This document shows positions 3,371 through 31,650 of a DNA stretch of 64,000 nt, piece by piece. Made by a program: the position numbers and the translations under genes. The notes beneath the pieces were generated by a model. It was not told the origin of the DNA and searched no databases. It saw only the letters and a program-made list of their open reading frames with translations. Numbering within the stretch: the stretch's first letter is position 1; every line of letters starts with the position of its first letter. Origin of the DNA: Actinopolyspora saharensis (GTDB lineage Bacteria; Actinomycetota; Actinomycetes; Mycobacteriales; Pseudonocardiaceae); contig NZ_FNKO01000002.1 in the NCBI RefSeq assembly GCF_900100925.1, positions 1,550,001-1,614,000 of the forward strand, written 5' to 3'.

Positions 3371-3654
3371 GGCGGTGCCGGTTGCTGAGGTGGTTGGTTA
3401 GCCGTCACGTGAGTCGGCGCCTTGCTGTGTTGGGCCGCTCTTGAGTAGCGACCTACGCTGCGAGCGGCCCGGCCTTGCAATGCATCCGACTCACGCACCG
3501 GAGCTTCTCGTTCTGCGTGGGCTCAGAGCATCTGCGTTGGGGTGAGGCCTTTCCGGCGGTGCCGGTTGCTGAGGTGGTTGCTTGGCCGGCACGTGAGTCG
3601 GCGCCTCGGGAGTGTTGGGCCGCTACGGACGCCGGAGCCGGCTTTCGCCAGCTC
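3371..3654. repeat. Tandem intergenic repeat, unit of about 184 bp
   Basis: The gap between the cyclase stop and the convergent deacetylase is filled by a repeat. The block GGCGGTGCCGGTTGCTGAGG begins at 3371 and again at 3555. In both copies it runs on through GTGGTTG and a CGTGAGTCGGCGCC block (CGTGAGTCGG at 3408 and 3592). The first unit carries a complete nested palindrome (3408-3495). The second is cut after its left half, just before the deacetylase stop at 3655. A connecting block CTGCGTTGGGGTGAGG at about 3531 recurs near 31503. Related copies lie at 22.8 and 31.4 kb. No coding potential is evident. Confidence 0.75.
3408..3495. repeat. Nested-palindrome element, copy 1 (88 bp)
   Basis: Three inverted repeats lie one inside another. 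The outer arms are CGTGAGTCGG (3408-3417) and CCGACTCACG (3486-3495). The middle arms are GGGCCGCTC (3432-3440) and GAGCGGCCC (3462-3470). The apical hairpin is GTAG-CGAC-CTAC (3445-3456). All pairings are perfect. The element can form a long cruciform, or an RNA stem on either strand, and could end transcription of the two convergent genes. The same plan recurs at 22748-22838, 31378-31464 and 31564-31650 with different stem sequences. Confidence 0.8.
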
Positions 3655-4317
3655 TCAACACCCCGGCACGGGACGGAACTCGTAGCCCTCGGCGCGCAAC
3701 TCGGGCAGGGCGGTGCGCAGTGCCTGGATGGTTTTCTCGCGGTTGCCTCCGCCGTCGTGCAGTAGCACCACGGCGCGTGGGGAGGCCGCCTCCACCAAGC
3801 GGTCGGCGAGCGCCTCGGCATCCGGGCGCTTCCAGTCCTTCGGGTCGACGTTCCACAGGACCGACCGCAGGTCGTGTTCGGCGAGCGCATCCTGGACGGC
3901 ATCGTTGGTGGCGCCGTACGGGGGGCGTATGCAGTCGCTGTCCGAGCCGACGGCACGCACCTCGTCCACGGAGCGCCGTAACTGGCTGTCCAGCTCCGCG
4001 GGGCTGAGCTTGGTGAGGTTTCGGTGGTTCCAGGTGTGCGTCGCCACGACGTGGCCCTCGGCCAGCATGCGCTGAGCGAGCTCGTGATTTCCGGCCAGGT
4101 TCTCGCCGAGCGCGAAGAACGTCGCCCGGACGTCATTGTCGTTCAGCACGGTCAGGATCTCGTCGGTGTCGTTCGACGGCCCGTCGTCGAAGGTCAGGTA
4201 CAGCGGTTTGGCCTCGCTGTCTGCCTGTGTGGGCGCGACGCATCCGGCGAGCACAACGGCGCACAGGAGCGGGATCAGTCCGGTAGCGACACGGCGCCAC
4301 GACGTGGTCTTGGTCAT
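3655..4317 (-). CDS. NodB-type polysaccharide deacetylase lipoprotein
   Basis: Predicted exported carbohydrate de-N-acetylase of 220 residues. The ATG at 4317 is preferred over an upstream in-frame ATG because it places a basic n-region directly before the hydrophobic stretch and the lipobox VLAGC, indicating a lipid-anchored protein outside the membrane. The NodB fold motifs are intact: TFDDGP (catalytic Asp and first metal ligand), the metal-binding HTWNH, RPPYG, and a C-terminal LLHDGGG carrying the catalytic His. Such enzymes remove acetyl groups from peptidoglycan or other N-acetylated glycans; the substrate cannot be told. It is divergent from the AfsQ1-like regulator, with 113 bp between them, so the two may share control. 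Its 3' end abuts the truncated repeat unit. Confidence 0.87.
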   Translation of the reverse strand: MTKTTSWRRVATGLIPLLCAVVLAGCVAPTQADSEAKPLYLTFDDGPSNDTDEILTVLNDNDVRATFFALGENLAGNHELAQRMLAEGHVVATHTWNHRNLTKLSPAELDSQLRRSVDEVRAVGSDSDCIRPPYGATNDAVQDALAEHDLRSVLWNVDPKDWKRPDAEALADRLVEAASPRAVVLLHDGGGNREKTIQALRTALPELRAEGYEFRPVPGC

Positions 4318-4430
4318 GGAACCGAAGGTCCGCCACGACCTTGGCGATCCGGTCGTCGTGATGTCCCGATCGTGTCGCAATCAGGCCCCGCTCCCGCAAG
4401 AACGGTCCGTTTTCCCCGAAAATCGCGGTA

Positions 4431-5108
4431 ATGGCGCAGATCTTGTTGATCGAGGATGATCAGTCCATCCGTACCAGCCTCGCGCTCGCCCTCGGCAGGC
4501 ACGGGCACCAGACGCGCGAAGCGGACACCGGAGAGGACGGTCTCCGCATGCTGGCCTCGGCGGAACCGGATGTCGTGGTGCTGGATCTGATGCTGCCCGG
4601 AATGGACGGCTTCGAGGTGTGTCGGCGCATCCGCGCGAAGTCCGCAGTACCCGTCATCATGCTCACCGCGCGCGGTGATGACTTCGATGTGGTCGGCGGC
4701 CTCGAGGCCGGTGCGGACGACTACGTGATCAAACCCGTACAACCGAGGGTGCTCGACGCGCGCATTCGTGCGGTGTTGCGCAGGGGGACGTTCGCCGAGC
4801 AGACGCAGTCCGACCGCTACCGCGACCTGACCATCGACCGCGCCGCGCTCACCGTCACCAAGGGTGATCAGCAGCTCGCGCTGACTCCGACCGAGCTGCG
4901 CGTGCTGCTGGAACTGTCCCGCTCGCCCGGTCAGGTGCTCAGTCGCATGCAGCTGCTCGAGCTGGTGTGGGAGTACGACTACCTCGGCGACTCCCGCCTG
5001 GTGGACAACTGCGTGCAGCGGTTGCGCGCGAAGATCGAGGACGAGCCCGCGCGGCCGGTGTTCGTGCAGACGGTGCGCGGGTTCGGCTACCGGTTCGGGC
5101 CGGTATGA
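4431..5108 (+). CDS. afsQ1: AfsQ1-like OmpR-family response regulator
   Basis: A 225-residue two-domain response regulator. The receiver domain (1-115) has the acidic pair IEDD, phospho-acceptor Asp52 in VLDLMLPGMDG, and the conserved Lys in DDYVIKPVQ. The C-terminal winged helix (about 130-225) carries LTPTELRVLLELSR and the recognition region GDSRLVDNCVQRLRAK. The KPVQ.RVLDARIRAVLRR and WEYDYLGDSRLVD stretches resemble Streptomyces AfsQ1 rather than CseB, by recollection. It overlaps the next gene, a sensor kinase, by ATGA, so the pair is cotranslated. AfsQ1/Q2 respond to nitrogen supply and steer antibiotic production and development in streptomycetes; whether that holds here is unknown. 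Confidence 0.88.
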   Translation: MAQILLIEDDQSIRTSLALALGRHGHQTREADTGEDGLRMLASAEPDVVVLDLMLPGMDGFEVCRRIRAKSAVPVIMLTARGDDFDVVGGLEAGADDYVIKPVQPRVLDARIRAVLRRGTFAEQTQSDRYRDLTIDRAALTVTKGDQQLALTPTELRVLLELSRSPGQVLSRMQLLELVWEYDYLGDSRLVDNCVQRLRAKIEDEPARPVFVQTVRGFGYRFGPV

Positions 5109-6538
5109 GGAGACGTGCGTCGCGTGATGTGCGTGCGCCGCGGGTGCTGCGCGGGCTGCGCGCCAGACTGATCGCCGCGTGCGTCGCGGTTGCCGTGCTC
5201 GCAGCCGCGACGGCGTCCTTGGTGAGTGCGGCCTCGGCCGGCAACTCGCTGCTGCGGTCGGCCCAACAGCGGATCGCGGACACCGCTGCGCGGCGGATCA
5301 CCGACACCGCGCCTGCGCTCGTCTACCCGCCGGACACCGGTGACCTGCGCAAGATCCGGGATGCCCTCGACGGGCCTGTCGTGGTGACGTACGAGTCGCT
5401 GCGCGTACACACCGGTGAGACAGCGGCGATCACCGAGCAACTGCGCACCGCCGTACATGACGGAGACCAACTCGCGCTGCAGCGGGTGGACTCCGCCACC
5501 GGGATGAAGCTGCTCATCGGCGTCCCGGTGCTGATCACCGGTGTGGACGGGCAGCAGCGGCCGTCCGGGATCGAGGTGTACCTGGTGCGTGACCTCGGTG
5601 ACGTGGTGCGGGAGGCGAACGCGCTCACCCGGAACGCGATATGGACGAGCGCGCTCGCGCTGCCGGTCGCCGTGCTGCTGGCCCTGCTGGCGGCGCGTGG
5701 CGTGCTGCGGCCGGTGCGCGAGCTCCGCGGAACCGCGCGCAAACTGGCCGCGGGCGACCTCGACGCCCGGTTGCGGCCCAGCGGCGCCGACGAGTTGGCC
5801 GAGCTCGCCACCACGTTCAACGACACCGCGGCCTCGTTGCAGTCCTCCATCGGCGAGCTGGCCAGAATGGAAGCCGACTCCCGCCGGTTCGTCGCCGACG
5901 TGTCACACGAGCTACGCACGCCACTCACCACCCTGACCTCCGTTGCCGAGATGCTGGAAGAGGATCTGGAGCGGATGCCGTCCGACGCACGGGCCTCCAT
6001 CGAGCTTGCCATCGCCGAAACCCGGCGACTGGCGTCGCTCGTCGAGGACCTGATGGAGATCGCCCGGTTCGATGCGGGCGCCGCGCAACCGCACCTGGAA
6101 CGGGTGGACATGCCCGGTGCGGTGCGGGAGTGCCTGCGGTCGCGCTCCTGGACCGAGCAGGTGCGGCTGGACTCGCCGGAGGAGCTGGCCGCCGTGCTGG
6201 ATCGGCGCCGACTGGATGTGATCGTGGCGAACCTCGTCGGCAATGCACTCCGGCACGGGGAACCACCGGTATTGGTGCGGTTGAGCGCGGACGAGCAGGA
6301 GGTGCACCTCGAGGTGATCGACAACGGCCCGGGACTGCCGGAGGAGGGCGCGGCGCAGCTGTTCGACCGCTTCTACAAGGCGGACTCCTCGCGCGGCCGG
6401 TCCGCGGGCAGCGGTCTCGGGATGGCGATCACCGCGGAGAACGTGTGGCTGCACGGCGGCACCGTCGAGGCGGGCGATGCCGACGGTGCGGGAGCCCGGT
6501 TCGCGGTCAGGCTGCCGCGCTGGTCGGAGGAAACATGA
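5105..6538 (+). CDS. afsQ2: AfsQ2-like sensor histidine kinase
   Basis: A 477-residue membrane kinase starting at the ATG that overlaps the regulator stop. A basic N-terminus leads into a first membrane helix (about 20-40). An extracytoplasmic sensor of about 130 residues follows, then a second helix (about 180-200) and a HAMP linker (PVRELRGTARKLAAGDL). The HisKA helix carries His268 in DVSHELRTPLTTL. The HATPase domain shows the N box (IVANLVGNALRHG) and G boxes (DNGPGLPEEG, GSGLGMAI). It should phosphorylate the AfsQ1-like partner. Its stop is overlapped by the start of the lipoprotein gene, giving a three-gene coupled operon in which the lipoprotein may tune sensing from outside the membrane. 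That role is inference. Confidence 0.88.
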   Translation: MRRRASRDVRAPRVLRGLRARLIAACVAVAVLAAATASLVSAASAGNSLLRSAQQRIADTAARRITDTAPALVYPPDTGDLRKIRDALDGPVVVTYESLRVHTGETAAITEQLRTAVHDGDQLALQRVDSATGMKLLIGVPVLITGVDGQQRPSGIEVYLVRDLGDVVREANALTRNAIWTSALALPVAVLLALLAARGVLRPVRELRGTARKLAAGDLDARLRPSGADELAELATTFNDTAASLQSSIGELARMEADSRRFVADVSHELRTPLTTLTSVAEMLEEDLERMPSDARASIELAIAETRRLASLVEDLMEIARFDAGAAQPHLERVDMPGAVRECLRSRSWTEQVRLDSPEELAAVLDRRRLDVIVANLVGNALRHGEPPVLVRLSADEQEVHLEVIDNGPGLPEEGAAQLFDRFYKADSSRGRSAGSGLGMAITAENVWLHGGTVEAGDADGAGARFAVRLPRWSEET

Positions 6539-7029
6539 AACGAACGGCCTCGGCGCTGTGCGTGCTGCTGGTGGTGCTGCTCACCGGATGCACGGTGCGT
6601 CCGAGCGAGGTGTTCAACGGGGGAGATGCGGCGACGGGCATCGCGAAGGGCACTCCCGTGTACCTGCTGGACTCCGAAGGGAACCTGGTGCTACGGCGAC
6701 CGACGAGCAGCCTCGGCACCATCGGACAGGCCCTGCGGCTGCTGCTCACCGGAACGGATCCCGATGCGGGATCCCTGCACTCCCGCGTGCATCTGGACTC
6801 CGTGCCTACTGCGCTGGACATTCCGGTGACCACTTCGGGCGACACGATCACGGTTCGGCTACCGATACCGCGCCGGAGGGTTCACGGGGCCAAAGGTATC
6901 GATCAGATCGTGTGCACCGTGCTCGCCGTACACATCCAGCGCGGTGGGGACCCCTCCAGCAAGGTGGTGCTGACGTTCACCACGGACAGGCCGACCGAAC
7001 CGCGCACCTGTCCAGTACTGGGGCGGTAG
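6535..7029 (+). CDS. GerMN-like lipoprotein of the afsQ operon
   Basis: A 164-residue lipoprotein whose ATG overlaps the kinase stop (ATGA). The signal sequence ends in the lipobox LLTGC, so the mature protein should be anchored on the outer face of the membrane. The remainder (GTPVYLLDSEGNLVLRRP, then a helix GQALRLLLTG, then a VPTALDIPVT strand region) resembles the GerMN fold found in actinobacterial lipoproteins and sporulation proteins. That is a judgement from pattern, not a search. Two cysteines near the C-terminus (IVCTV, RTCPV) could form a disulfide. Its fixed place behind the kinase suggests it senses or modulates envelope state for the AfsQ-like pair. Confidence 0.75.
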   Translation: MKRTASALCVLLVVLLTGCTVRPSEVFNGGDAATGIAKGTPVYLLDSEGNLVLRRPTSSLGTIGQALRLLLTGTDPDAGSLHSRVHLDSVPTALDIPVTTSGDTITVRLPIPRRRVHGAKGIDQIVCTVLAVHIQRGGDPSSKVVLTFTTDRPTEPRTCPVLGR

Positions 7030-7110
7030 CACCCCGCGAACACCCGGTTGCGACAAACCCGCGACATGACGCGGACGGCATCCTGACACGGGCGCAGCAC
7101 AGTGGATGCC

Positions 7111-8322
7111 ATGACGAAGGTCCAACCGAGTACGGCTGCTCAACCGAAGGCGGGCAAGCCGTATCAACCCGCGCTGGACGGGCTGCGCGGCATCGCGATA
7201 CTGGGTGTGCTGCTGTTTCACACCGACCACCTGCCCGGTGGTTTCCTCGGTGTGGACCTGTTCTTCGCGTTGTCCGGGTATCTCATCACCGAGTTGCTGC
7301 TGCGGGAAGTCGAGACAACGGGAACGGTGTCGCTGGTCGCCTTCTGGGGCAGGCGGATCCGCAGGCTGCTGCCCGCGCTCGCGACGGTGCTCGTCGGTGT
7401 CACCGTGCTGGTATGGCTGGTGGCAACACCCGGCATGGTGCGCACGACACTCGCGGACGCCCCGTGGGTGCAGCTGAACCTGATGAACTGGCACCTGCTG
7501 GCGGAATCGGCCAGCTACTGGGACAGCTTCGGGCAGGAGCGGGTGTTCGAACACCTGTGGAGCATCGCGGTCGAGGAGCAGTTCTACCTCGTGTGGCCGG
7601 CGCTGCTGTTGCTCGTCACTCGGGGAGTCCTGCGGGTGGATCGCCGGGTCGCCGTGGTCGCTGCCGCGTGTTCGGCCATCTCCCTGGTGTTGATGATCGT
7701 GCTGGTCAGCCCGGTGGATCCGACGCGCGTCTACACCGGAACCGACACCAGGGCCTTCTCGCTGTTGCTCGGCGCCGTGGTCGCCACCCCGTGGGCGCGT
7801 GCCGTGCTGGCCCGCGCGGTCGGCCGTTGGGCGGGTGCCGCGCTGGTGGTGCTGGCGGTCGGAATCGGCGCCATATGGGCGCTTGCCGCCGGTAAGGAGT
7901 CGCTGTGGCTGTACAACGGCGGACTCTTCGCGCACTCCCTGGCCGCTGCCTTGCTGATCGGGCTGTGCGCGCGGACACCGCACGCGCTGCTCGCCAAGGT
8001 CCTCGCCTGGCAGCCGCTGCGGTGGCTGGGACTGATCTCCTACAGCCTGTACCTGTGGCACTGGCCCGTCATCGTGCTGCTGCCTCCGGAGCGGACCGGG
8101 CTCGACGGGTGGGCGCTGACCGCCGTGGTGTGCGCTGTCTCGATCGGCTTGGCCGCGCTCTCGAAGTACCTGATCGAGGACCCGATCCGATTCCGCGCCG
8201 AGTGGGCTAGGGGGCGCAAGGGGGTGGTCGCGTTCGTTGCGCTCATGGCCGGGATGGCGGTGCTGTGGCTGACACTGCCCACTCCCGATCCGTCCACGGT
8301 CGACGTCAGCAACCTGGACTGA
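7111..8322 (+). CDS. OafA/YrhL-type membrane acyltransferase
   Basis: Acyltransferase family 3 protein of 403 residues from ATG 7111 (a GTG at 7102 is an alternative). It has about ten membrane helices. The family landmarks are present: the N-terminal YQPALDGLRGIAILGVLLFH with the conserved Arg and His, FFALSGYLITELL, the RRIRRLLPA block, and EHLWSIAVEEQFYLVWP with the second conserved block. It lacks the C-terminal SGNH domain that many relatives carry and ends shortly after the last helix (LWLTLPTP). A separate SGNH lipoprotein is encoded about 2 kb downstream on the other strand and could supply that half. Members O-acylate cell-surface glycans; the acceptor here is unknown. The 3' end overlaps the convergent LysR gene by 17 bp. 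Confidence 0.86.
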   Translation: MTKVQPSTAAQPKAGKPYQPALDGLRGIAILGVLLFHTDHLPGGFLGVDLFFALSGYLITELLLREVETTGTVSLVAFWGRRIRRLLPALATVLVGVTVLVWLVATPGMVRTTLADAPWVQLNLMNWHLLAESASYWDSFGQERVFEHLWSIAVEEQFYLVWPALLLLVTRGVLRVDRRVAVVAAACSAISLVLMIVLVSPVDPTRVYTGTDTRAFSLLLGAVVATPWARAVLARAVGRWAGAALVVLAVGIGAIWALAAGKESLWLYNGGLFAHSLAAALLIGLCARTPHALLAKVLAWQPLRWLGLISYSLYLWHWPVIVLLPPERTGLDGWALTAVVCAVSIGLAALSKYLIEDPIRFRAEWARGRKGVVAFVALMAGMAVLWLTLPTPDPSTVDVSNLD

Positions 8323-9211
8323 CGGGGTCCGGCGTGCCGCCGTCCGGCGGTGCGCCGGCCGCGACAGTCGTGGCGGCACGGACGAATGCTGCGACGGCGT
8401 GCGAGCGGGAGTCGCTGGGCCACGCCACGGACAGGGTGCTCGGTTCGAGATCCGTGACAGTTCTGTAGGCGATTCCCGTGCGCGGGTAGCGGTGTGCCAG
8501 CGAGGCGGGCGGGAACAGCACCATGTCGCCCAGTTCGACCAGACTGAAGATCTGGGTGAGGTCGAGGTGGTTGGTCCGGGTCCGGTTCCCCGGACCCGCC
8601 GACGGCCCCTGTTCGGCCGGAGTGCCGTCGGGCAGTGCTCTGCCCGCCAAGTCGGCCAGGCCCAGGGAATCCCTGGCGGCCAGCGGGTCGTCCGCCGGTA
8701 ATGCCACCAGGCGCGGTTCGGTCAGCAGCGGTTCTGCGTCCAGTCCCCGGTCGTCGAAGGGAGTCAGCAGCAGTGCGACGTCCGCACGGCCGTCGAGCAG
8801 CGCCGGTACCTGCTGCCCCAGCCCGCCCATCAGCAGCTCGACCGGCAGCGCCGCGTCGTCCCGTTCGTAAGTGGTGCGAATGCCGGGCAGCAGGCCCGCA
8901 TCGCAGTCGGCCTTGAACGCGACCCGCAGCGTGGGCGTGTCCCCGCCCGCGTTCCGCGCTCGCCGAGCAGCCGCCGTGACCGCGTCGAGTGCGCTGCGTG
9001 CGTCCCGCAGGAATCCTTCCCCCGCTGGGGTCAACGTGACCTGTCGCGTGGTGCGTTCCAGCAGCCGCGCGCCCAGTTGGCGCTCCAGCTCGCGGATCGC
9101 CCGCGAGAGGGGCGGTTGTGCGATGCCGAGTCGGCCGGCGGCACGTCCGAAGTGCAGCTCCTCGGCGACGGCCACGAAGTACCGCAGCTGGCGCACATCC
9201 GGCTCGCCCAT
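8306..9211 (-). CDS. LysR-family transcriptional regulator
   Basis: A 301-residue LysR regulator. The N-terminal winged helix reads DVRQLRYFVAVAEELHFGRA, then AQPPLSRAIRELERQLG, then LLERTTRQVTLTPAG, the standard family signature. The rest is the periplasmic-binding-like effector domain (about 95-295). It is divergent from the NAD(P)-binding oxidoreductase gene, with about 150 bp between the starts, the usual arrangement for a LysR regulator and its target, so control of that gene is likely. A Pro/Gly-rich tail of about 15 residues overlaps the end of the acyltransferase gene. The effector ligand cannot be predicted. Confidence 0.9.
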   Translation of the reverse strand: MGEPDVRQLRYFVAVAEELHFGRAAGRLGIAQPPLSRAIRELERQLGARLLERTTRQVTLTPAGEGFLRDARSALDAVTAAARRARNAGGDTPTLRVAFKADCDAGLLPGIRTTYERDDAALPVELLMGGLGQQVPALLDGRADVALLLTPFDDRGLDAEPLLTEPRLVALPADDPLAARDSLGLADLAGRALPDGTPAEQGPSAGPGNRTRTNHLDLTQIFSLVELGDMVLFPPASLAHRYPRTGIAYRTVTDLEPSTLSVAWPSDSRSHAVAAFVRAATTVAAGAPPDGGTPDPVSPGC

Positions 9212-10421: not shown

Positions 10422-10452
10422 AGCGGCACTCAGCAGCCAGTGGACGCGGCGG

Positions 10453-11329: not shown

Positions 11330-11770
11330 GACACCAAGTGTCGAGGTCCGCAGCGGCAGCACGACGCGCTCGACTCGGTCCGGGTGCGGGTGTTCGCGGA
11401 AGCGATCAGCGGCACCAGCAAGGCCACCGACCGGACCGGCTTGCGTGACGCGTTGGATCATCTCCGCCCCGGCGACCTGCTCACCGTCCAAGAGGTCGAC
11501 CGACTGGGAGGCAACCTCCTGGACGGGTTGCTGACGCCGTCCGAGCTGTTCCAGCGCGGCATCAGCGTCAAGGTGCTGGACGGCATCGCCGCCGGCGAGC
11601 ACACCGAACGCTCCCCGACCTTGGAGCTAGCGCTCGCGTTGGCCGAGGCTCGCCGTCGCGACATCTCCCGCAAAGCGAAGAACGGGCTGGACGCCGCGGC
11701 CAAGTGGCTGCTCGACGGGCGCGCTCCCGCAGCCGGGCGCCGACCGAAGTTCCGCCAAGCGACCGCCTAC
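11330..11770 (+). pseudogene. Serine recombinase (resolvase) remnant
   Basis: An open frame here translates to the middle and end of a resolvase catalytic domain. It shows the RQHDAL box, VFAEAISGTS, the LTVQEVDRLGGN helix and the end of the domain at GLDAAAKWL, followed by the start of the hinge (GRRPKF). The first forty or so residues, with the catalytic Ser and the YxRVS motif, are absent, and I find no credible start codon. The C-terminal helix-turn-helix is also missing because the frame runs into the 3' end of the AI-2E transporter gene. It is a broken relic of a mobile element or integron-like insertion. No terminal repeats or target duplication are visible. Confidence 0.78.
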
Positions 11771-12897
11771 TCCGGCCGAGCCACCGACTCCTCCGCTTCC
11801 TCGTCATCCGCTTCGCCTTCCTCCTCCTCGGAGGAACCGGCCAGGGAACGCACGGCTGAGTTGAGCATCGCCATCACCGGAACGGCCAGCAGAGCCCCGA
11901 TGATCCCCCCGGCTATGACGCCGACGCTGATCGCCAGCACCACCGCGAGCGGGTGCAGCCGCACCGCGCGCCCGATCAGCAGCGGCTGGAGCACGTTGCC
12001 CTCCAGCTGCTGCACCCCGAGCACCACGGCCAGCACCAGCAGCGCCGCGATGGGGCCGTTGGCCACCAGCGCGACGAGGATGGCGACGGCGCCGGAGGCC
12101 ACCGCTCCGACGATGGGGATGAACGCGGCCAGGAAGACCAGTGCGGCCAGTGGAACGACCAGCGGGACCCCGATGATCGCGAGCCCGATGCCGATGCCGA
12201 GCGCGTCACCGACCGCGACCAGACCGGTGGCGCGGATGTAGCCGATCAGGGAATCGAAACCGCGCGAGCCGGCCAGATCGATCCGGGGGCGCACCGATTC
12301 CGGCAGCGGGTTTATCAGGAAGAGCCAGATCCTGCGCCCGTCGTGCAGGAAGAAGATCAGCGTGAACAGCATCAGCAGCAGCCCGGTCAGGAAGTTTCCC
12401 ACCGTGGTCGCCGTGGCCAGCGCCCCGCTGGTCAGCTGCTGCTGGTTGTCCTCCAACCAGGTGCCCATCTGGTCGATGTACCTGTTGATCTGCTCCTGCC
12501 CCAGGTGCAGCGGGCCGCTGGACAGCCATTCCCGGATGGTGTTCAGGCTCGCGGTCAGCTGCTGCTGCAGGCGGGGCAGGCCGGCGATGAAGGCGTTGAT
12601 GACGAAGGTCAGCACGCCGCCGACGGCCGCCAGCCCCCCGACGAGCACCACCGCCGTGGCCAACCCTCTGGGCACGCGCATTCGGGTGAGCAGCGACACC
12701 GCCGGAGCGAGCAGGGCGGACAGCAGGAGTGCGATCGCGACGGGGATCAGCACGACGGAAAGCTTGCCCACGATCCACCCGAGGGCGTACAGCATCCCGA
12801 AGATGATCAACATGCGCCAGCCGATGGCGGCGGTCAGGCGGATCGCGGGTGGGACCCGGGCGGCCTCGTCGGAATTCGTGACCTTGGTGGCACTCAC
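11767..12897 (-). CDS. AI-2E-family transporter, paralogue 1
   Basis: Membrane protein of 376 residues in the AI-2 exporter/TqsA superfamily. GTG 12897 is the likeliest start; there is no strong ribosome site. It has about eight membrane helices: a first pair (MLIIFGMLYALGWIVG, VLIPVAIALLLSALL), a soluble amphipathic stretch rich in Gln (about 110-185), then a dense helical C-terminal half. The conserved family segment VQQLEGNVLQPLLIGRAVRLHP is present (only its core is needed for recognition). The C-terminal tail is a run of Glu/Asp. Family members export AI-2, sodium or other small solutes; no substrate can be assigned. A second copy lies at 32855-34009. The stop codon overlaps the resolvase relic. 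Confidence 0.82.
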   Translation of the reverse strand: MSATKVTNSDEAARVPPAIRLTAAIGWRMLIIFGMLYALGWIVGKLSVVLIPVAIALLLSALLAPAVSLLTRMRVPRGLATAVVLVGGLAAVGGVLTFVINAFIAGLPRLQQQLTASLNTIREWLSSGPLHLGQEQINRYIDQMGTWLEDNQQQLTSGALATATTVGNFLTGLLLMLFTLIFFLHDGRRIWLFLINPLPESVRPRIDLAGSRGFDSLIGYIRATGLVAVGDALGIGIGLAIIGVPLVVPLAALVFLAAFIPIVGAVASGAVAILVALVANGPIAALLVLAVVLGVQQLEGNVLQPLLIGRAVRLHPLAVVLAISVGVIAGGIIGALLAVPVMAMLNSAVRSLAGSSEEEEGEADDEEAEESVARPE

Positions 12898-22536: not shown

Positions 22537-22747
22537 GTGAGCCCCGGACGAATCGTCCGCTCGGAAAGCGGTGCTCGGGGCGGGGTTCGCTTCGGCGCTG
22601 CCCGCGCCGAAGCGGTGGCACTGCCCGCCGGAACGTCCGCAGGCGCCGCTGGCACTGAGAACGATCCACTGCACGAGTCGAGTTCCCGGAAAACCCTCCG
22701 CACGAGGTGAGCGCTTACGAGCCCGTGCAGGAGGAGAAGCCCCGGTG

Positions 22748-22838
22748 CGTGAGTCGGATGCATTGCAAGGCCGGAAGGGCACGTGGCGGAGGTCGCTGCT
22801 CGAGGTGCCCTCCAACGCTCCCGAAGCACCGACTCACG
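22748..22838. repeat. Nested-palindrome element, copy 2 (91 bp)
   Basis: Same plan as the element at 3408-3495, in the opposite orientation. The outer arms are CGTGAGTCGG (22748-22757) and CCGACTCACG (22829-22838). The middle stem is AGGGCAC with GTGCCCT, replacing the GGGCCGCTC/GAGCGGCCC of copy 1. The apical part GCGG-AGGTCG-CTGC still pairs using one G-T wobble. The flank GGATGCATTGCAAGGCCGG is shared with copy 1. It occupies the gap between the convergent lysozyme and purL genes. Confidence 0.78.
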
Positions 22839-22885
22839 TGCCCCGGCTACCGCGACCCACCCGCGCAGAGCTCTGCTGCGGGACG

Positions 22886-25210
22886 TCAGCCGAACAGGGC
22901 GGGCAGAGTTCCCTCCCAGGTGCTGCGCAGCTCGGACAGCGGGATGTCGCCGATTCCCTGGATCTCCAGCGACTGGGACTCGGTGTCGACGACCCCGATC
23001 TTCGTGCACGGCAGCTCCCTGGCGGAGCAGAGCTCGGTGAAGCGCAGCTCCTCACCGCGCGGCACCGAGACCACGGCCCGCCCGGCGGACTCGGAGAACA
23101 GCCACACGAAGGGGTCGGCTCCCTCGGGCAGCACGATCCGCGCCCCGGTCTCGCCGATCAGCGACATCTCCACCAGGGCCTGGGCCAGCCCGCCCTCGGA
23201 GAGGTCGTGCGCTGCCGAGACCAGCCCGTCCCGCGCACCGACGGCCAGGATGTCGCCGAGCAGCTTCTCCCCGGCGAGATCCACGGCCGGCGGCGTGCCA
23301 CCGAGGTGACCGTGAACCACCCCGGCCCACTCGGAGCCGCCGAACTCCTCGCGGGTGTCGCCGAGCAGCATCAGTGACTCACCGGGAGCCGCGCCGATCC
23401 CCGTGGGGATCCGGCGGGTGACGTCGTCGATCACCCCGAGCACTCCGACCACGGGGGTCGGCAGGATCGGGCTGCTGCCCGTCTGGTTGTAGAAGCTCAC
23501 GTTGCCGCCGGTGACCGGGATGCCCAGCTCGGCCGAGGCATCGGCCAGTCCGCGGACCGCCTGCTGGAACTGCCACATCACCGCGGGGTCCTCGGCCGAG
23601 CCGAAGTTGAGGCAGTTCGTCACCGCCACCGGCTTCGAACCGGTCACCGCCACGTTGCGGTAGGCCTCGGCCAGGGCGAGCTGGGCCCCCTGGTAGGGGT
23701 CGAGCCTGGTGTAACGGGCGTTGCAGTCGGTCGCCACGGCGATGCCGCGTCCGGTCTCCTCGTCGATCCGCAGCACCCCGCCGTCCGAGGGCTGCGCCAG
23801 CACGGTGTTGCCGCGGACGTAGTGGTCGTACTGGCTGGTCACCCAGTCGCGGGAGCACAGGTTGGGGGAGGCCGCCATGCGCAGCAGCGTCTCGCGCAGC
23901 TCCTCCGCGGTGGAGGGGCGGGCGAGCGTGTCCGGGTTGTCCGCGGTGATCAGGTCCTGCTCGGCCGGGCGCTGGACCGGGCGCTCGTAGACGGGCCCCT
24001 CGTCGGCCACCGTCCGGGGCGGGACGTCGACGACGCGCTGACCCTGCCAGTCGATCTCCAGGTTCTCCCCGTCGGTGACCTCACCGATGACGGTGGCGGT
24101 CACGTCCCACTTGCGGCAGACCTCCATGAAGCCTTCCACAGCGGAGGGACGCACGATCGCGCACATCCGCTCCTGCGACTCGCTGGACAGGATCTCCGCC
24201 GGATTCATCCCCTCCGCGCGCAGCGGCACCTCGTCCAGGTCGATCCACATCCCGCCGTCGCCCGCGGAGGCGAGCTCGGAGGTGGCGCAGGAGAGCCCGG
24301 CCCCTCCGAGGTCCTGCACACCGACCACGAGCCCGGAGCGGTACAGCTCCAGACAGCACTCGATGAGCACCTTCTCGGTGAACGGGTCCCCCACCTGCAC
24401 GCTGGGGAGCTTCTTGCGTCCGCCGCCGGTCTCGTCCCCGCTGAAGGTCTCCGAGGCGAGCACGGAAACCCCGCCGATGCCGTCCAGACCGGTGCGCGCG
24501 CCGAACAGGATCACCTTGTTGCCCGCGCCGCTGGCGTGGGCCAGCTGCACCTCGTCCGACTTGAGCACCCCGACGCACATGGCGTTGACCAGCGGATTGC
24601 TCGCGTAGGACTCGTCGAAGACGACCTCGCCGCCGATGTTGGGCAGCCCCAGGCAGTTGCCGTACCCGCCGATGCCCTCGACCACACCGGGCAGCACCCG
24701 CGCGGTGTCGGGAGCCTCGGCGGGGCCGAAGCGCAGCGGATCGGCCACCGCGACCGGGCGCGCCCCCATCGCCATGATGTCGCGGACGATGCCGCCGACA
24801 CCGGTCGCCGCGCCCTGATGCGGCTCGACGTAGGAGGGATGGTTGTGGCTTTCCACCTTGAAGGTGACCGCCCAGCCGTCGCCGACGTCGACGACCCCGG
24901 CGTTCTCCCCGATGCCCGCGATCATCTTGGACCGCATCTGCTCGGTGGTGGCCTCGCCGAAGTACTTCAGGTGGACCTTGGAGGACTTGTAGGAGCAGTG
25001 CTCGCTCCACATGACCGAGTACATCGCGAGCTCGGCCTCGGTGGGGCGGCGCCCGAGTATCCCGCGGATGCGCTCGTACTCGTCGTCGGCCAGTCCGAGC
25101 TCGCGGTAGGGCTGCGCGGCCTCGGGGGTCCGCGCGGCGTGCTCGGTGCTGTCCACGCGCTCGGAGTCGCCGTCGGCTCGTGCGGCGGGTTCGTGGGTGG
25201 TTTCGGTCAT
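22886..25210 (-). CDS. purL: Phosphoribosylformylglycinamidine synthase, large subunit PurL
   Basis: A 774-residue protein catalysing the ATP-dependent conversion of FGAR to FGAM in purine synthesis, using ammonia channelled from PurQ. It is the short (subunit II) form found with separate PurS and PurQ. Recognisable motifs are [16 protein letters not shown] near the N-terminus, [10 protein letters not shown] with the catalytic His region, [26 protein letters not shown] and, in the second half, NCLNFG and AHDLSEGGL. The length fits the family. A charged, non-conserved N-terminal extension of about 35 residues may reflect an acidic proteome. Its start overlaps the stop of purQ (ATGA). The 3' end faces the lysozyme gene across the palindromic repeat. 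Confidence 0.97.
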
Positions 25211-26628: not shown

Positions 26629-26832
26629 ATGGCACAGGGAACCGTGAAGTGGTTCAACTCGGAAAAGGGCTTCGGCTTCATCGCCCCGGACGAGGGCGGT
26701 CCTGACGTTTTCGTGCACTACTCGGCGATCGACGCCGACGGCTTCCGCAGCCTGGACGAGGACCAGCAGGTGACCTACGAGGTCACCCAGGGGCCCAAGG
26801 GTCCGCAGGCGGACATGGTGCGCGGACTGTAA
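26629..26832 (+). CDS. Cold-shock protein (CspA family)
   Basis: A 67-residue single cold-shock domain that binds single-stranded RNA and DNA. The RNA-binding motifs are intact: KGFGFI (RNP1) and VFVHYSAI (RNP2), preceded by [12 protein letters not shown]. Compared with common Csps it is acidic (DEGGPDV, DEDQQ), in line with other proteins in the window. The ribosome site CAGGAGGT lies five bases before the ATG. A long upstream leader and a following 14-bp hairpin indicate an independent transcript. Confidence 0.96.
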
Positions 26833-26849
26833 CTTCCGCGTTTCGCGTG

Positions 26850-26883
26850 ACGGTGGCTGCCGGCTCGCTCCGGCAGCCACCGT
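26850..26883 (+). terminator. Terminator of the cold-shock gene
   Basis: ACGGTGGCTGCCGG (26850-26863) pairs perfectly with 26870-26883 around a six-base loop. A second hairpin follows at 26890-26911 (GGTGAGCGG/CCGCTCACC), and a third around 26912-26943. No U run. Confidence 0.82.
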
Positions 26884-26999
26884 TCGCCCGGTGAGCGGAA
26901 CTCCGCTCACCGCCACGGACGGGCACTCGCCCGCTCCGTGGCGCTGTCGAAGGAACGCCACGGGCCTTTCGACCAGGCCCGGGCGGAGGAAGGAAATTT

Positions 27000-27272
27000 A
27001 TCTCCACAACGAAATCACCGTTCTCCGGTGAGCAGCTGCGTCGTGACGAGTCGGCGGAGACCCGCCGACCGGTTTCCCCCGAGCAGTCGCACGGGGTCGA
27101 CCGACGTGGCGCCCGGCGGAAGCAGTTCCCCCGCCGATACGATTCCGTGAGCCCGGTCCGGTTCATCGAGCCGGAACCGCTCGAGGGGTTCGAACCGGAA
27201 TCCGAGGCCGTCGATTACCGGCAGGCCGCGAAGGGCGGACTCAACAACCCCTTCGAACAACCCACCTCCTGA
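27000..27272 (+). CDS. Small acidic-tailed ORF with non-canonical start
   Basis: A frame open from before 26940 and ending at TGA 27270-27272 has strongly GC-biased third positions (most codons end in G or C), as expected for a real gene here. If translation begins at ATC 27000 the product has 90 residues. That position lies ten bases after a good ribosome site (GGAGG, 26985-26989) and would give a natural N-terminus (STTKSPFSGEQLRRDES). No ATG or TTG lies in frame; the only in-frame GTG is at 27147, leaving 41 residues. The middle is Arg-rich; the C-terminal part is acidic (FIEPEPLEGFEPESEAVDY) and ends GGLNNPFEQPTS. I do not recognise it. Either a rare ATC start or a sequence error at an original ATG would explain it. 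It is followed by a hairpin. Confidence 0.5.
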   Translation: MSTTKSPFSGEQLRRDESAETRRPVSPEQSHGVDRRGARRKQFPRRYDSVSPVRFIEPEPLEGFEPESEAVDYRQAAKGGLNNPFEQPTS

Positions 27273-27278
27273 GAGCTT

Positions 27279-27306
27279 CCACCCGCTCACGCGGTGGCGC
27301 GGGTGG
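27279..27306. terminator. Hairpin after the small ORF
   Basis: CCACCCGC (27279-27286) pairs with GCGGGTGG (27299-27306), a perfect 8-bp stem with a 12-base loop, seven bases after the stop of the small ORF. Another hairpin (GTCCTCG/CGAGGAC) lies around 27372-27396. These separate the ORF from the convergent dehydratase gene. Confidence 0.55.
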
Positions 27307-27489
27307 CGGAATCTCCCGCGGGCTCGAGCTCCGGGCCCCGACATCGAGCAGCACCCCACGTCACATCGAGGCGTCCTCGTGAGAGCAACGCGAGGACCCC
27401 GTGGCGGTGCGAGTTACCGGGGCCGCTTCGGCGTGGCAACGTCGGCCTCGAAGCGTTCCGGCGCTCGACTCGGGTGCCGGAGCAGCGAC

Positions 27490-28374
27490 CTATGCGGCGT
27501 CTCCCGCCTCGTTCCGGTGCAGCCGGCCCCGCAGATGGGTCCTGCCCGCGGTCGAGTGCAGCGCGAAGGACTTCTCCGCCGAGTCCGGGGCCGTCCGCTC
27601 GGTGAACTCCACCCGCGAGGGCAGCAGCACCGGCTTGGCGAACTCGACGTCCACGGTGCAGGCCGTGGGCAGCCGCCCCTCGAAGGCCGCCAGGCAGCGC
27701 GCCGCGGACCACATGCCGTGAGCGATCGTCCGGGGAAAGCCGAACGCCTTCGCCGTGAGCGGATGCAGGTGTATGGGATTGCGATCCCCGGACACCGCGG
27801 CGTAGCGCCTGCCCAGATCCCCGGGCAGTTTCCACACCGCGGTGGGCTGCCCCGCCTCGATCTCGGCGATGTCCTCCTGCCGGGGGGCTGACTCGTTCCT
27901 GGCCCCCCGGTGCAGGTAGGTGCTGGTCTCGGTCCACACGGTGCGTCCGCCGACACCGGTCTCGGTGACCACGTCGAACTGGATCCCCTTCGGGTGCGGA
28001 CGCGGACCGGCCAGGCGCACCCGCTGGGTCAGCGTGTCGGTCACCAGCAGCGGCTCGTGCCTGGTGATGCTGTTGGCCACGTGGACCAGACCGACCAGCG
28101 GGAACGGGAAGTCCCGGTCGGTCATCAGGCGCACCGCGAGCGGGAACGAAGTGATGTGCGGATAGGTGAGCGGCAGCTCGTCCCTGGTGCCGAACCCGCA
28201 GATCCGGTTGTACTCGGCCAGGTGCTCGCGGTCGACGGGGACGTCGGAGCGCACGTACTCGGTGCCCGGCAGGTCCTCCTCCGCCGAAGCTCCCCGGCGC
28301 AGCGGGGCCGTGGCCGCGGCCTTCAGGTACAGCGGGCCGAGTTTCGGGGACTCGGTGAGTTCTGCTGTCGACAT
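27490..28374 (-). CDS. MaoC-family (3R)-hydroxyacyl-thioester dehydratase, HtdX-like
   Basis: A 294-residue double hot-dog protein that hydrates or dehydrates enoyl/(3R)-hydroxyacyl thioesters. ATG 28374 lies behind AAGGTGG. The C-terminal half carries the hydratase-2 motif, with Asp and His in SGDRNPIHLHPLTAKAFGF followed by IAHGMW. The N-terminal half is the degenerate hot-dog. In Mycobacterium tuberculosis the homologous set is htdX-fabG4-fadA2-fadE5. Here the dehydratase lies downstream of FabG4 on the same strand after a 206-bp gap and near FadA2, so the same fatty-acid pathway is implied. The 206-bp gap suggests it may also have its own promoter. Confidence 0.88.
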   Translation of the reverse strand: MSTAELTESPKLGPLYLKAAATAPLRRGASAEEDLPGTEYVRSDVPVDREHLAEYNRICGFGTRDELPLTYPHITSFPLAVRLMTDRDFPFPLVGLVHVANSITRHEPLLVTDTLTQRVRLAGPRPHPKGIQFDVVTETGVGGRTVWTETSTYLHRGARNESAPRQEDIAEIEAGQPTAVWKLPGDLGRRYAAVSGDRNPIHLHPLTAKAFGFPRTIAHGMWSAARCLAAFEGRLPTACTVDVEFAKPVLLPSRVEFTERTAPDSAEKSFALHSTAGRTHLRGRLHRNEAGDAA

Positions 28375-28580
28375 CGCCGGTTTCCACCTTTCCGTTGGGG
28401 AGTGCGCGGTTTGATTCGCTCGGGTGGTTCCGCGGGGGAACCCGCGGCGGTGCCGGTGGGCGGGGTGATGCTTCGGCGCTGCCCCGCGCCGACAACACCG
28501 GTCGGACAGCGCATCGCCGTCACGTCGAGAGCTGGCGAGCACCACCGGAGGAGTTGCGTCCCTCCCCCTGGCGCCGCGGG

Positions 28581-29918
28581 TCAGGCGCCCAGCATGCTCT
28601 GCCCGCACACCCGGATCACGTTGCCGTTGACCCCGTCGGATCCGGGATCGGCGTAGAAGGCGACCGTCTCGGCCACGTCGATCGGCAACCCGCCCTGCGC
28701 GAGGCTGTTCATCCGCCTGCCCGCCTCGCGGATCACCAGCGGGACGGCCGCCGTCATCGCGGTCTCGATGAAACCGGGCGCCACGGCGTTGATCGTCACG
28801 CCGCGTTCGGCCGCGCGCTCCGCGAGCGCTTGCACGTGGCCGATCACCCCGGCTTTCGAGGTGGCGTAGTTCGCCTGACCGACGTTGCCCGCTATACCGC
28901 TTATCGAAGCCACCCCGATGAGCCTTCCTCCCCTGCGCAGCGGTGAGGAATCCGCGAGCAGCGCGGCGTTGAGGCGCTCCTGCGCCGCCAGGTTGACCGC
29001 GAGCACCGGCTCCCACCTGTCCGCGCTCATGCGCCCGATGGTCTTGTCCCGGGTGATGCCCGCGTTGTGCACCACGACGTCGAGACCCTCGTGGCGCTCG
29101 GTGAAGTGCTCGACGACGCGCTGCGGGGCGTCCTGCGCGGTGATGTCGAGCTGCAGCGCCGAACCGCCGATCCGGTTGGCCACCTTCGCCAGGTCCTCGC
29201 CCTGGGCCGGGACGTCCAGGCACACCACGTGGGCCCCGTCGCGGGCGAGGGTCTCGGCGATCGAAGCCCCTATGCCGCGGGAAGCGCCGGTGACCAGCGC
29301 GACCTTCCCGCGCAGCGGTTGCTGCCCGTCGGCCTCCCCGGTCCGCCGCGCCCCGACGCGGATCACCTGCCCGGAGACGAAGGCGGACTTGGCCGACAGC
29401 AGGAACCGCAGGCTGGAGTCGATAGCCTCCTCCCCGCCGCGCGAGACGTGGACGAGCTGGGCGGTCGCACCGCCCTTGAGTTCCTTGCCCGCGGTCCGCA
29501 CGAAGCCCTCAAGCGCGCGTTGCGCGGTCCGCTCCACCGGGTCCTCGATCTCCTCCGGTGGGGTGCCGAGCACGATCAGCCTTCCGCAGCGGGCCGTCCG
29601 GCGGATCACCGGGGAGAAGAAGTCGCGCAGCTGCCCCAGCCGGGTGCTGTCCGTGATTCCGGTGGCGTCGAAGACCAGTCCGGCGTAGCGCTCGTCCTCG
29701 GCCGGGGTCTCGTGGACCTCCGCGCGCACCGCCTCGAGGGTCCGCGTGAGCGAGGGGCCGAGCCGGGATCCCTCGGCCGCGCCGAGCAGCACCGGTCCGG
29801 AGACGACGGGGTCGCCGGGGCGGTACCTGCGCAGCGGGGTCGGGGCTGGCAGCCCGAGACGTCCGGCCAAGCGCCGTCCGAACTGCGCGGAGACGAGCTT
29901 GCTGTACGGGTCGGCCAT
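28581..29918 (-). CDS. fabG4: High-molecular-weight 3-oxoacyl-(ACP/CoA) reductase FabG4
   Basis: A 445-residue two-domain reductase. The C-terminal domain (about 205-445) is a classical SDR with cofactor motif TGASRGIG, the NAG strand (VVHNAGITRD) and the Ser-Tyr-Lys catalytic set in VASISGIAGNVGQANYATSK. The N-terminal 200 residues form the flavodoxin-like extension that defines the FabG4 class, which prefers NADH. It should reduce 3-oxoacyl thioesters in the pathway shared with the HtdX-like dehydratase and FadA2. The start (ATG 29918) has GAGGAG upstream and faces fadA2 across a 135-bp divergent promoter with a 22-bp palindrome. A TetR-type repressor probably controls both; no such regulator is in the window. 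Confidence 0.93.
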   Translation of the reverse strand: MADPYSKLVSAQFGRRLAGRLGLPAPTPLRRYRPGDPVVSGPVLLGAAEGSRLGPSLTRTLEAVRAEVHETPAEDERYAGLVFDATGITDSTRLGQLRDFFSPVIRRTARCGRLIVLGTPPEEIEDPVERTAQRALEGFVRTAGKELKGGATAQLVHVSRGGEEAIDSSLRFLLSAKSAFVSGQVIRVGARRTGEADGQQPLRGKVALVTGASRGIGASIAETLARDGAHVVCLDVPAQGEDLAKVANRIGGSALQLDITAQDAPQRVVEHFTERHEGLDVVVHNAGITRDKTIGRMSADRWEPVLAVNLAAQERLNAALLADSSPLRRGGRLIGVASISGIAGNVGQANYATSKAGVIGHVQALAERAAERGVTINAVAPGFIETAMTAAVPLVIREAGRRMNSLAQGGLPIDVAETVAFYADPGSDGVNGNVIRVCGQSMLGA

Positions 29919-29962
29919 GACTGAGACTCCTCAACGACGCGCGTGGTCCAGCACTCGACGCA

Positions 29963-29984
29963 TAAGCTACCCGTCGGTAGGTTA
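29963..29984. promoter_or_regulatory. Palindromic operator between fabG4 and fadA2
   Basis: Core CTACC-CGTC-GGTAG (29967-29980) flanked by TAAg and gTTA, giving a 22-bp palindrome with only two unpaired positions outside the centre. The TACC-N4-GGTA core is repeated in the promoter of the FadE5-like gene at 56626-56663. Position between two divergent lipid genes and symmetry fit a TetR-family binding site. Confidence 0.68.
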
Positions 29985-30053
29985 AGTTGCCAGCAGGCCG
30001 GGAACCTTCCTGGTGCCGGTATTCGTTGATCAGCTTCCGCGAAGGAGTCGGGC

Positions 30054-31331
30054 ATGTCCACAACTCGCCGTGTCGCCGTCGTCGGAGGGAACCGGATCCC
30101 GTTCGCGCGAGCGGGCGGCCCGTACGCGCACGCGTCCAACCAGGACATGCTCACGGCCGCCCTCGACGGGCTGCTGGCACGCCACGGGCTGTCCGGGCAG
30201 CGGGTCGGGGAGTTCGCGGCCGGGGCCGTGCTCAAGCACAGCCGCGACTTCAACCTGGCCCGCGAGGTCGTGCTCGGCTCGGGCCTCGACCCGCGCACCC
30301 CCGCGCACGACGTCCAGATGGCCTGCGCGACCGGTCTGGAAACCGTCGTCTCGATCGCCAACAAGATCGCGCTCGGCCAGCTCGAGTCGGGGATCGCCGG
30401 AGGAGTGGACTCGGCCAGCGACGCACCGATAGAGCTCAACGACGAGCTGCGCCGGGTGCTGCTGCGCGCCAACCACGCCAAGGGACCGGGTGGAAAGCTG
30501 CGCGCGCTGAGCGGGGTGCGACCCCAGCACGTCGTCCCGGGGATCCCGCGCAACGCGGAACCGCGCACCGGGCTCTCCATGGGCGAGCACGCCGCCAGGA
30601 CGGCAGCCGCCTGGCAGGTGGGGCGGGCCGAGCAGGACGAGCTCGCCGCGCGCAGCCACCAGCGCCTCGCGGACGCCTACGAACGGGGCTTCTTCGACGA
30701 CCTGATCACGCCCTTCCAAGGGCTGTCCCGCGACCAGAACCTGCGCCCGGACTCCTCGGAGGAGAAGCTGGCCAAGCTCGAACCGGTGTTCGGGCGCGGC
30801 GAGCAGGCCACCATGACCGCGGGCAACTCCACCCCGCTCTCCGACGGCGCCTCCACGGTGCTGCTGGCCAGCGAGGAGTGGGCGAATCACCACCGACTGC
30901 CCGTGCTCGCCTACCTCGAGGACTTCGTCTCCGGGGCCGTGGACTACGTCAGCGGTGACGAGGGCCTGCTGATGGCCCCCGCCTACGCGGTTCCCGAGCT
31001 GCTGGACCGCGCGGGCAACACGCTCGACCAGTTCGACTTCTACGAGATGCACGAGGCCTTCGCCTCGCAGGTGCTGTGCACGCTCAAGGCGTGGCAGGAC
31101 CGGGAGTTCTGCTCCCGGCGTCTCGGGCGCAGCGAGCCGCTGGGCGAGCTCGACACCGACCGGTTGAACGTGAACGGTTCCTCGTTGGCGGTGGGGCATC
31201 CCTTCGCGGCCACGGGCGGGCGGATCGTCGCCACGCTGGCCAAGCTGCTGGCCGAGAGCGGTTCCGGGCGCGGGTTGATCTCGATCTGCGCGGCTGGTGG
31301 GCAGGGGATTACCGCGATCGTCGAACGATGA
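30054..31331 (+). CDS. fadA2: Acetyl-CoA C-acetyltransferase FadA2-like thiolase
   Basis: A 425-residue thiolase cleaving or forming 3-oxoacyl-CoA. ATG 30054 has GAAGGAG upstream. The nucleophile is Cys91 in QMACATGLE. The catalytic His lies in EMHEAFA, the C-terminal GHPFAATGGR supplies the next conserved His, and the activating Cys is in CAAGGQG. The loop after residue 135 is longer than in short thiolases and matches the FadA2/trifunctional-like group. It is divergent from fabG4 and shares its palindromic operator. With FabG4 and the HtdX-like dehydratase it supplies the core reactions of a fatty-acid cycle; direction (degradation or elongation) cannot be told from sequence. Confidence 0.93.
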   Translation: MSTTRRVAVVGGNRIPFARAGGPYAHASNQDMLTAALDGLLARHGLSGQRVGEFAAGAVLKHSRDFNLAREVVLGSGLDPRTPAHDVQMACATGLETVVSIANKIALGQLESGIAGGVDSASDAPIELNDELRRVLLRANHAKGPGGKLRALSGVRPQHVVPGIPRNAEPRTGLSMGEHAARTAAAWQVGRAEQDELAARSHQRLADAYERGFFDDLITPFQGLSRDQNLRPDSSEEKLAKLEPVFGRGEQATMTAGNSTPLSDGASTVLLASEEWANHHRLPVLAYLEDFVSGAVDYVSGDEGLLMAPAYAVPELLDRAGNTLDQFDFYEMHEAFASQVLCTLKAWQDREFCSRRLGRSEPLGELDTDRLNVNGSSLAVGHPFAATGGRIVATLAKLLAESGSGRGLISICAAGGQGITAIVER

Positions 31332-31377
31332 GTGTGGGTCGGCGGCTCCTTTTGCTTGGTGGGTCGCTTGGCGGAAC

Positions 31378-31464
31378 CTCAGTCGGCGCCCGGCTGCGGG
31401 ATCCTCGACATCGGGTAGCGGCCTACACAACGTCGAGGCTGTCCTCGCCGGGCACTCGACTGAG
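31378..31464. repeat. Nested-palindrome element, copy 3 (87 bp)
   Basis: Outer arms CTCAGTCG (31378-31385) and CGACTGAG (31457-31464). Middle stem CCTCGAC (31403-31409) with GTCGAGG (31432-31438). Apical hairpin GTAG-CGGC-CTAC (31415-31426). The plan and spacing match the copy at 3408-3495, but all but the GTAG/CTAC tip have changed in step, so pairing is kept. It lies just after fadA2. Confidence 0.8.
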
Positions 31465-31563
31465 AACCCGCGGCGGTGCCGGATGCTCGGGTGTGTGAGC
31501 GGCTGCGTTGGGGTGGAGGCTTTTTCGGGGACTGGCTTGTCGTAGGTGGTTGCTTGGCGGTGC

Positions 31564-31650
31564 CTCGGTCGGCGCCCGGCTGCGGGATCCTCGACATCGG
31601 GTAGCGGCCTACACAACGTCGAGGCTGTCCTCGCCGGGTACTCGACTGAG
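31564..31650. repeat. Nested-palindrome element, copy 4 (87 bp)
   Basis: Nearly identical to the copy 186 bp upstream; about 126 bp (31551-31676) align with few differences. The left outer arm reads CTCGGTCG, so one outer pair becomes a G-T wobble; the other stems are unchanged. The link between the two units (CTGCGTTGGGGTGGAGGC, about 31503) matches the link in the 3.4-kb array. Confidence 0.8.

Follow-up and report, generated by a model that had tools for sequence, protein, structure and literature searches.

A dispersed family of nested-hairpin elements located mostly behind stop codons in Actinopolyspora saharensis and other Pseudonocardiaceae

Intergenic units of the miniature inverted-repeat transposable element (MITE) type, such as ERIC/IRU, Correia/NEMIS and RUP, are about 100–200 bp long, have an inverted-repeat plan and lie dispersed between genes. 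A repeat of this general description occurs in several copies within a 64,000-nt stretch of the genome of Actinopolyspora saharensis (contig NZ_FNKO01000002.1, nt 1,550,001–1,614,000; hereafter the window, with positions counted from its first base), a salt-loving bacterium from soil whose assembly comprises 4.68 Mb in 2 contigs. The element differs from the MITE-type units in having neither a recognised transposase partner nor a clean target duplication, in its conserved mismatched loops and in a rule of orientation. The nearest kind in organisation is that of the repetitive extragenic palindromes and their relatives (REP/BIME/REPIN) with the REP-associated tyrosine transposases (RAYT) of the GTAG and CGTC super-families. 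According to the available text of two papers (PMC3733652, PMC3116915), these, too, are palindromic repeats that lie outside genes in high copy number, in many cases 3' of a gene, and they show alternative complementary stems, heterodimers and clustering in tandem. The differences concern the tag, the size, the enzyme and the taxon. The REP palindrome measures 20–40 bp and carries a GTAG or CGTC tag at its foot, whereas the present element has a six-helix core with conserved internal loops, lacks a terminal tag and is sense-oriented behind stop codons, and the RAYT domain (Y1_Tnp) is absent from the host genome. The same available text reports GTAG repeats from Proteobacteria, Cyanobacteria, Chloroflexi and the PVC group, and contains no word starting with 'actino'.

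A further parallel is offered by the structured 3' ends without a U-tract ('I-shaped' terminators) reported from Term-seq of Streptomyces clavuligerus (PMC8269248, available part). These likewise have a GC-rich stem 3' of genes and include two-sided ends between genes on both strands. They form a functional class defined by folding energy and U count, whereas the repeat described here is one homologous family with fixed loops, known from sequence alone. We favour, at about even chances, the reading that the Pseudonocardiaceae carry a dispersed family of non-coding nested hairpins, divided into subfamilies A and B, that may act as a sense-oriented 3'-end module (in termination, pausing or 3' protection).

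Four palindromes in the window had been described, in an earlier sequence-only reading, as nested hairpins of a single family built on one plan. All four were located and all fold in this way. They do belong to one structured family, which divides into two homologous subfamilies, A (n = 2) and B (n = 2): the copy at 22748 is a minus-strand variant of the element at 3408, and the pair at 31.4–31.65 kb represents the related second subfamily. The relationship rests on the two covariance models, each of which also matches its counterpart within the window (B model R1 on A at 3392–3509, E 8.7e-8; A model R2 on B at 31362–31476, E 2.5e-12). The three-tier plan proposed for the copies is incomplete, since the consensus of B comprises six helices, together with internal loops that are conserved, in a core of ~119 nt, and in other genera the core is usually followed by a second small hairpin. 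A B copy reads GCGG-AAC-CTC... and continues through two variable stems and a conserved short helix (GGGA/TCCT) between small internal loops. Beyond these come another variable stem, an internal loop that also varies, and the apical stem, closed by a short loop. The ends of B are GCGGAACC...AGAACCCGC. GTAG-N4-CTAC, noted in three of the four copies, is not a family motif: GTAG is confined to the apical stem and is not shared by all copies, and outside the genus this stem is often GTAT/ATAC, GAAT/ATTC, GACC/GGTC or GTGT/ACAC.

The claim that pairing is kept while the stems change was borne out in larger alignments. In alignment A1, made of 82 of the 83 unique full-length B matches (the degenerate window copy being omitted), 13 of 29 pairs vary on both sides, with 237 covarying cells against a mean of 81 in shuffles, none of 500 being as high; shifting the partner by 1–3 columns left only 19–40. 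Alignment A3 holds 103 matches from other genera, and its rows were aligned to the B model and hence lean towards it; here 22 of 29 pairs vary on both sides (477 cells against 144 in shuffles, 0/500 as high). All 103 rows (97 distinct) were kept for this count, while two antisense rows were dropped for the loop, wobble, tail-hairpin and position counts. The proportion of paired cells, 97.8% in A1 and 95.1% in A3, compares with 87.7% and 75.3% in shuffles, again with 0/500 as high. In the A subfamily, for which alignment A2 comprises 73 of 81 matches, 6 of 26 pairs vary on both sides. The fold z-scores of the four window copies (−3.5, −6.4, −1.9 and −1.8) are modest for two of the four, so the evidence for structure is the comparison between copies.

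While the stems vary, two internal loops stay nearly fixed: in the cross-genus rows AGAACC is present on the right in 101/101, GGAACC on the left in 94/101 and TCCTC in 98/101. This bears on the view that the paired changes are mainly mutational, produced by quasi-palindrome correction and gene conversion among copies without selection on structure. Stems do change blockwise, chimeric copies are present, and double transitions make up 41 of 115 nearest-neighbour changes between Watson–Crick pairs, near the proportion of one third that free replacement would give, a result that is only suggestive of random replacement. A blind correction process would not, however, have left the AAC/AAC loop uncorrected over several genera, and different pairings are seen at orthologous gene ends, so that a mainly mutational origin appears very improbable.

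Of 97 cross-genus copies, 75 have a perfect hairpin (6 bp or longer) within the 110 nt that follow the core, the median distance being 19 nt, compared with a mean of 12.6 copies when the flanks are shuffled. Its start falls 14–32 nt past the core in 69 of the 97 (mean 2.5 in shuffled flanks), and its arms differ pairwise between copies, for example AAGCGGC/GCCGCTT, ATGCGCC/GGCGCAT and TCAGCGGC/GCCGCTGA.

The occurrence of the family in the genome and its relatives exceeds chance, as a genome-wide search and a covariance-model scan of relatives, both suggested when the four copies were first noticed, have shown. BLAST at E up to 10 returned 42 matches to A in the host genome (41 of them below 1e-14) and 56 to B, partial ones counted (49 at E 1e-3 or less), and the B model returned 124 with E no higher than 1e-3, including a few copies of A and a few antisense matches. 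An exact A pattern found 24 stretches, 21 of them from Actinopolyspora biskrensis, A. xinjiangensis and A. alba; the remaining three come from unrelated bacteria and appear fortuitous. A BLAST search of 41 genomes recovered A in 11, namely all ten searched of the genus (host included) and one of a different genus. Among 249 sampled Pseudonocardiaceae genomes, the B model matched 68, representing 14 of 46 genera, with up to at least 149 matches per genome among the best 150 candidates scored, and the A model matched 27, of which 22 are also B-positive. In a class-wide sample B was found in 2 of 394 genomes, the host and one more of the same family.

As the sequence-only reading had supposed, the element corresponds to no family that could be found. 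At the gathering score, Rfam returned no element match anywhere in the window, and when both element regions were scanned permissively, every match lay far below the gathering scores (best E 0.053), so a known RNA family was rejected. None of the three outcomes named beforehand as refuting the family (absence of further copies, absence of covariation, a match to a known family) thus came about. The open-licence literature that was searched yielded no account of a family of this kind, either for Actinopolyspora or for the Pseudonocardiaceae. A 2025 REP survey (PMC12306157) includes three Actinomycetota genomes in the available part of its table, and a word search of the available text gave no Pseudonocardiaceae. 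The family thus appears to be undescribed, a variant within the dispersed palindromic intergenic repeats, and there is a real chance that its RNA part forms a separate class.

The four copies lie just after gene ends, as first reported, with stops at 3360, 22886 (minus strand) and 31331, and the last copy is the second unit of a tandem. Gene context was then assessed with our own simple GC3-based gene caller for 209 distinct A and B copies with usable flanks. Copies less than 700 bases from a locus end were left aside, as were those whose core and near flank were the same as in another copy; window copies beyond the first set entered this count via loci and not as window rows. The upstream gene is co-oriented in 167 of the 209, and in 121 of these 167 (121/209 overall) its stop codon lies 20–39 nt before the model start. 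At convergent sites the co-oriented stop is the nearer one in 89 of 104 cases (p 6e-14), and among tandem arrangements ++ outnumbers −− by 62 to 35 (p 0.008). Overlap with a called gene was seen in 8 of 209 copies. A cross-genus set (n = 98, partly overlapping the 209) behaved alike, with 38 ++, 13 −− and 6 divergent arrangements, the co-oriented stop nearer at 31 of 37 convergent sites, and a median spacing of 29 nt. Of the 124 matches, 14 lie on C1, and these were omitted together with the ten weakest. For the 100 listed copies on contig C2 the strand bias of B (75 of 100) is no different from the one shown by genes in a sample of 20 stretches (163/246, p 0.13), which indicates that B orientation follows the genes. 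A replication-strand bias of insertion was rejected, as the strand switch of B along C2 is paralleled by that of the genes.

Where two copies face each other in Actinopolyspora, they are always of different kinds: all 24 facing pairs consist of one A against one B, with no A–A or B–B pair among them. The 24 are distinct sequences, some of which are orthologous between species and so not independent. Thirteen lie between genes called convergent, 11 of these with both stops within 40 nt, and in 20 of the 24 a co-oriented stop lies within 40 nt on one side or both. Tandem pairs numbered 14 AB, 4 BA, 4 BB and 0 AA. The linkers of facing pairs span 108–174 nt and many are alike between loci, those of ~130 bp at L003, L007, L009–L012, L017, L018 and L061 being mutually similar, which suggests that A–linker–B composites may move or convert as one unit.

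A 3'-end module is favoured because orientation, spacing, the second small hairpin and the A–B pairs fit it, together with the U-lacking 3' ends of GC-rich Streptomyces in the part of the Term-seq report available, and the sense orientation behind stop codons speaks for a role at the transcript level. Once the host gene is transcribed, a hairpin of ~110 nt would form behind the terminating ribosome, usually joined, outside the genus, by the second small hairpin ~19 nt downstream. The main hairpin might pause or release RNA polymerase without a U-tract, block 3' exonucleases, or both, and a candidate protein may be bound to the conserved loops. An A-facing-B pair would insulate two converging genes, and copies could be spread and homogenised by a putative mobiliser, by recombination among copies, or by both. 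A bolder and rather doubtful form of the idea treats the family as a mobile structured RNA class, a 'portable 3' end' in 3' untranslated regions whose fixed internal loops would be recognised by a putative host factor, with A and B assembling into one module that acts on both sides to end and insulate genes that converge; the sense orientation would then be explained if the spread were RNA-templated or coupled to transcription.

Several results weigh against the 3'-end module. There is no U-tract behind the window copies at 3.4 and 31.4 kb, by which a canonical intrinsic terminator was rejected; a single terminator-like site occurs in the surroundings of the B copies, where it lies upstream of B, and there is none near the A copy. 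G–T and A–C stem cells stand at 33:16 in A1 and at 24:41 in A3 (one conserved G–T column excluded), so that there is no consistent RNA-specific excess of wobble pairs over mismatches in these two alignments. The antisense strand folds better, by a mean of 9.0 (A1), 2.3 (A2) and 5.4 (A3) kcal/mol, the sense strand being the more stable in only 4/82, 19/73 and 11/95 copies. Of the gene arrangements, 35/209 copies are −− and 5/209 divergent, and for 11 of the 24 facing pairs the flanking genes were not called convergent. The third loop, beside the apical stem, has many forms across genera; one stem is partly broken at a gatB locus (L213) in genus g50, and in a fifth genome of that genus (G058) the copy has a different location. 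A 3' location, though not the orientation, would also follow if insertions into genes and promoters were simply selected against. The lack of a wobble excess and the better antisense fold thus argue against plain selection on sense-strand RNA and, with the missing U-tract, leave room for a role at the DNA level.

The strand result also touches a further possibility, that the element is a trans-acting or regulatory structured RNA, such as a small RNA derived from a 3' untranslated region or a site for an RNA-binding protein, with termination incidental. Fixed internal loops with varying stems, in a family matched in 14 genera, and the sense orientation would suit such a role. It appears unlikely in view of the better antisense fold, the unrelated host genes in the window, the up to at least 149 matches per genome and the lack of anything similar in Rfam.

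Orthologous sites give an indication of age and turnover. An A copy lies 3' of the same gene in G006, A. biskrensis, the host genome and G004 (L069, L146, L018 and L076), with stems that differ and stay paired. In genus g50, genomes G118, G138, G091 and G169 have orthologous B copies behind gatB (identified by Pfam in the first three and by protein sequence in G169), whose stems are intact though paired differently in three of the four. Some orthologous sites lack a unit (L135 compared with L005, L150 with L011, L154 with L157, and L081 with L152). An automatic empty-site search returned many false cases (tandem neighbours, the same locus held twice), and five long-flank pairs were then aligned; occupied and unit-less sites show no clean target duplication, and their breakpoints are blurred by flanking direct repeats. 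Genome G240 has near-identical cores at five loci. Copy L089 (G000:C2:730852–730955) is a mosaic of half a B joined to half an A at the apical hairpin, and L089, L013 and L039 are mosaics with a left half B and right half A, or with mixed B stems and broken pairing. The unit-less sites, the near-identical cores and the half-B/half-A copy indicate that gain or loss and exchange of units have occurred. The outer flanks of four of the near-identical G240 copies (L181–L184) contain a further imperfect inverted repeat (CTGTCTTTGAACT / AGTTCAAAGACAG-like); those of L185 differ, yet again contain a short inverted repeat.

An alternative is that the element is REPIN- or MITE-like selfish DNA, in which a folded single strand, with its conserved mismatched loops and freely varying stems, would be recognised by a transposase supplied in trans, now lost or of a type not searched for, and the 3' location would reflect tolerated insertions. 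We regard this as a possible explanation, of appreciable though minority weight. It agrees with the high copy number, the five G240 loci, the tandem and mosaic clusters, the orthologous sites without the unit, the stems without consistent wobble excess, and repeats resembling TGCGTNGG that flank many copies on both sides; A facing B in 24 of 24 pairs looks like two different ends of one element. The rule of orientation and spacing is not expected under it, however. Among the matches listed, no longer A...B unit enclosing a gene was recognised, no systematic search being made. Mobilisation by RAYT was rejected: Y1_Tnp (PF01797) has 0 matches in the host genome and occurs in just 21 of 68 B-positive genomes (absent from 47), though above its frequency in B-negative ones (Fisher p 0.013), other transposase families not having been searched. 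Carriage by a virus, phage or plasmid was also discarded, with no match to one exact pattern or, in blastn, to one G240 copy. The MITE option raised at the outset has neither a known transposase as partner nor a clean target duplication.

With its varying stems and fixed loops the element has a clear anatomy, and its place behind stop codons is marked. It would represent a structured element of high copy number, matched in 14 of the 46 genera sampled within one family, and makes two questions directly testable in GC-rich actinobacteria, namely what ends transcripts without U-tracts and how hairpin repeats spread without RAYT. The gatB copies are low-copy orthologous cases suited to genetics.

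Table 1. Element copies in the 64-kb window and the genes they follow
Feature	Position (nt)	Strand	Evidence
Element A, full copy	3393..3506 (nested core 3408–3495)	+	R2 match E 8.3e-31 (copy included in model); fold z −6.4
Second A unit, 5' half	~3554..3624	+	Direct repeat D7; BLAST match G000:C2:1553564–1553624; weak R2 match 3577–3681, E 0.0017
B element, 5' half	~11725..11787	−	Inverted repeats I2/I3; sequence; R1 at 11688–11765, E 0.0021
Element A, full copy, variant middle stem	22737..22855	−	R2 E 1e-19 (copy included in model); alignment A2
Degenerate B copy	27296..27410	+	R1 E 2.9e-10; = G000:C2:1577296–1577410; kept out of model building
Element B, tandem unit 1	31361..31479	+	R1 E 3.8e-32 (copy included in model)
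Element B, tandem unit 2	31547..31665	+	R1 E 4.7e-30 (copy included in model); repeat D2
GGDEF-domain protein, host gene of first A copy	2065..3360	+	Pfam PF00990; stop 33 nt upstream of element
AI-2E family transporter, host gene of B half copy	11767..12897	−	Pfam PF01594
PurL-like protein (AIRS, AIRS_C, FGAR-AT linker domains), host gene of second A copy	22886..25210	−	Pfam
Thiolase, host gene of B tandem	30054..31331	+	Pfam PF00108, PF02803

The copies in the window and their host genes are listed in Table 1. The minus-strand A copy begins ~31 nt past the stop of the PurL-like gene and the first B tandem unit ~30 nt past that of the thiolase gene, while the B half copy lies directly 3' of the stop codon of the transporter gene. 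The two B units have a period of 186 bp, and the 5' half of the second A unit stands in tandem with the full A copy at a spacing of 184 bp. A weak partial match to the A model at 35914–35977 (−; E 0.0026) is possibly a further remnant.

Elsewhere in the window, Rfam RF01791 (F6 TB sRNA) matches at 32104–32160 (+) with 67 bits, above the gathering score. Two 300-bp stretches, 11919–12218 (within the AI-2E family transporter gene) and 32971–33270, are 71% alike and possibly belong to paralogous genes. In G000:C2, the sign of the GC skew and the sampled gene strand bias shift at ~1.45–1.65 Mb, suggesting a replication origin near the window; a protein-motif search of C2 1.29–1.41 Mb found no dnaA there. 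The right end of the window (59172–64000, +) carries 16S and 23S rRNA genes, and GC skew is strongly positive across its last 8 kb.

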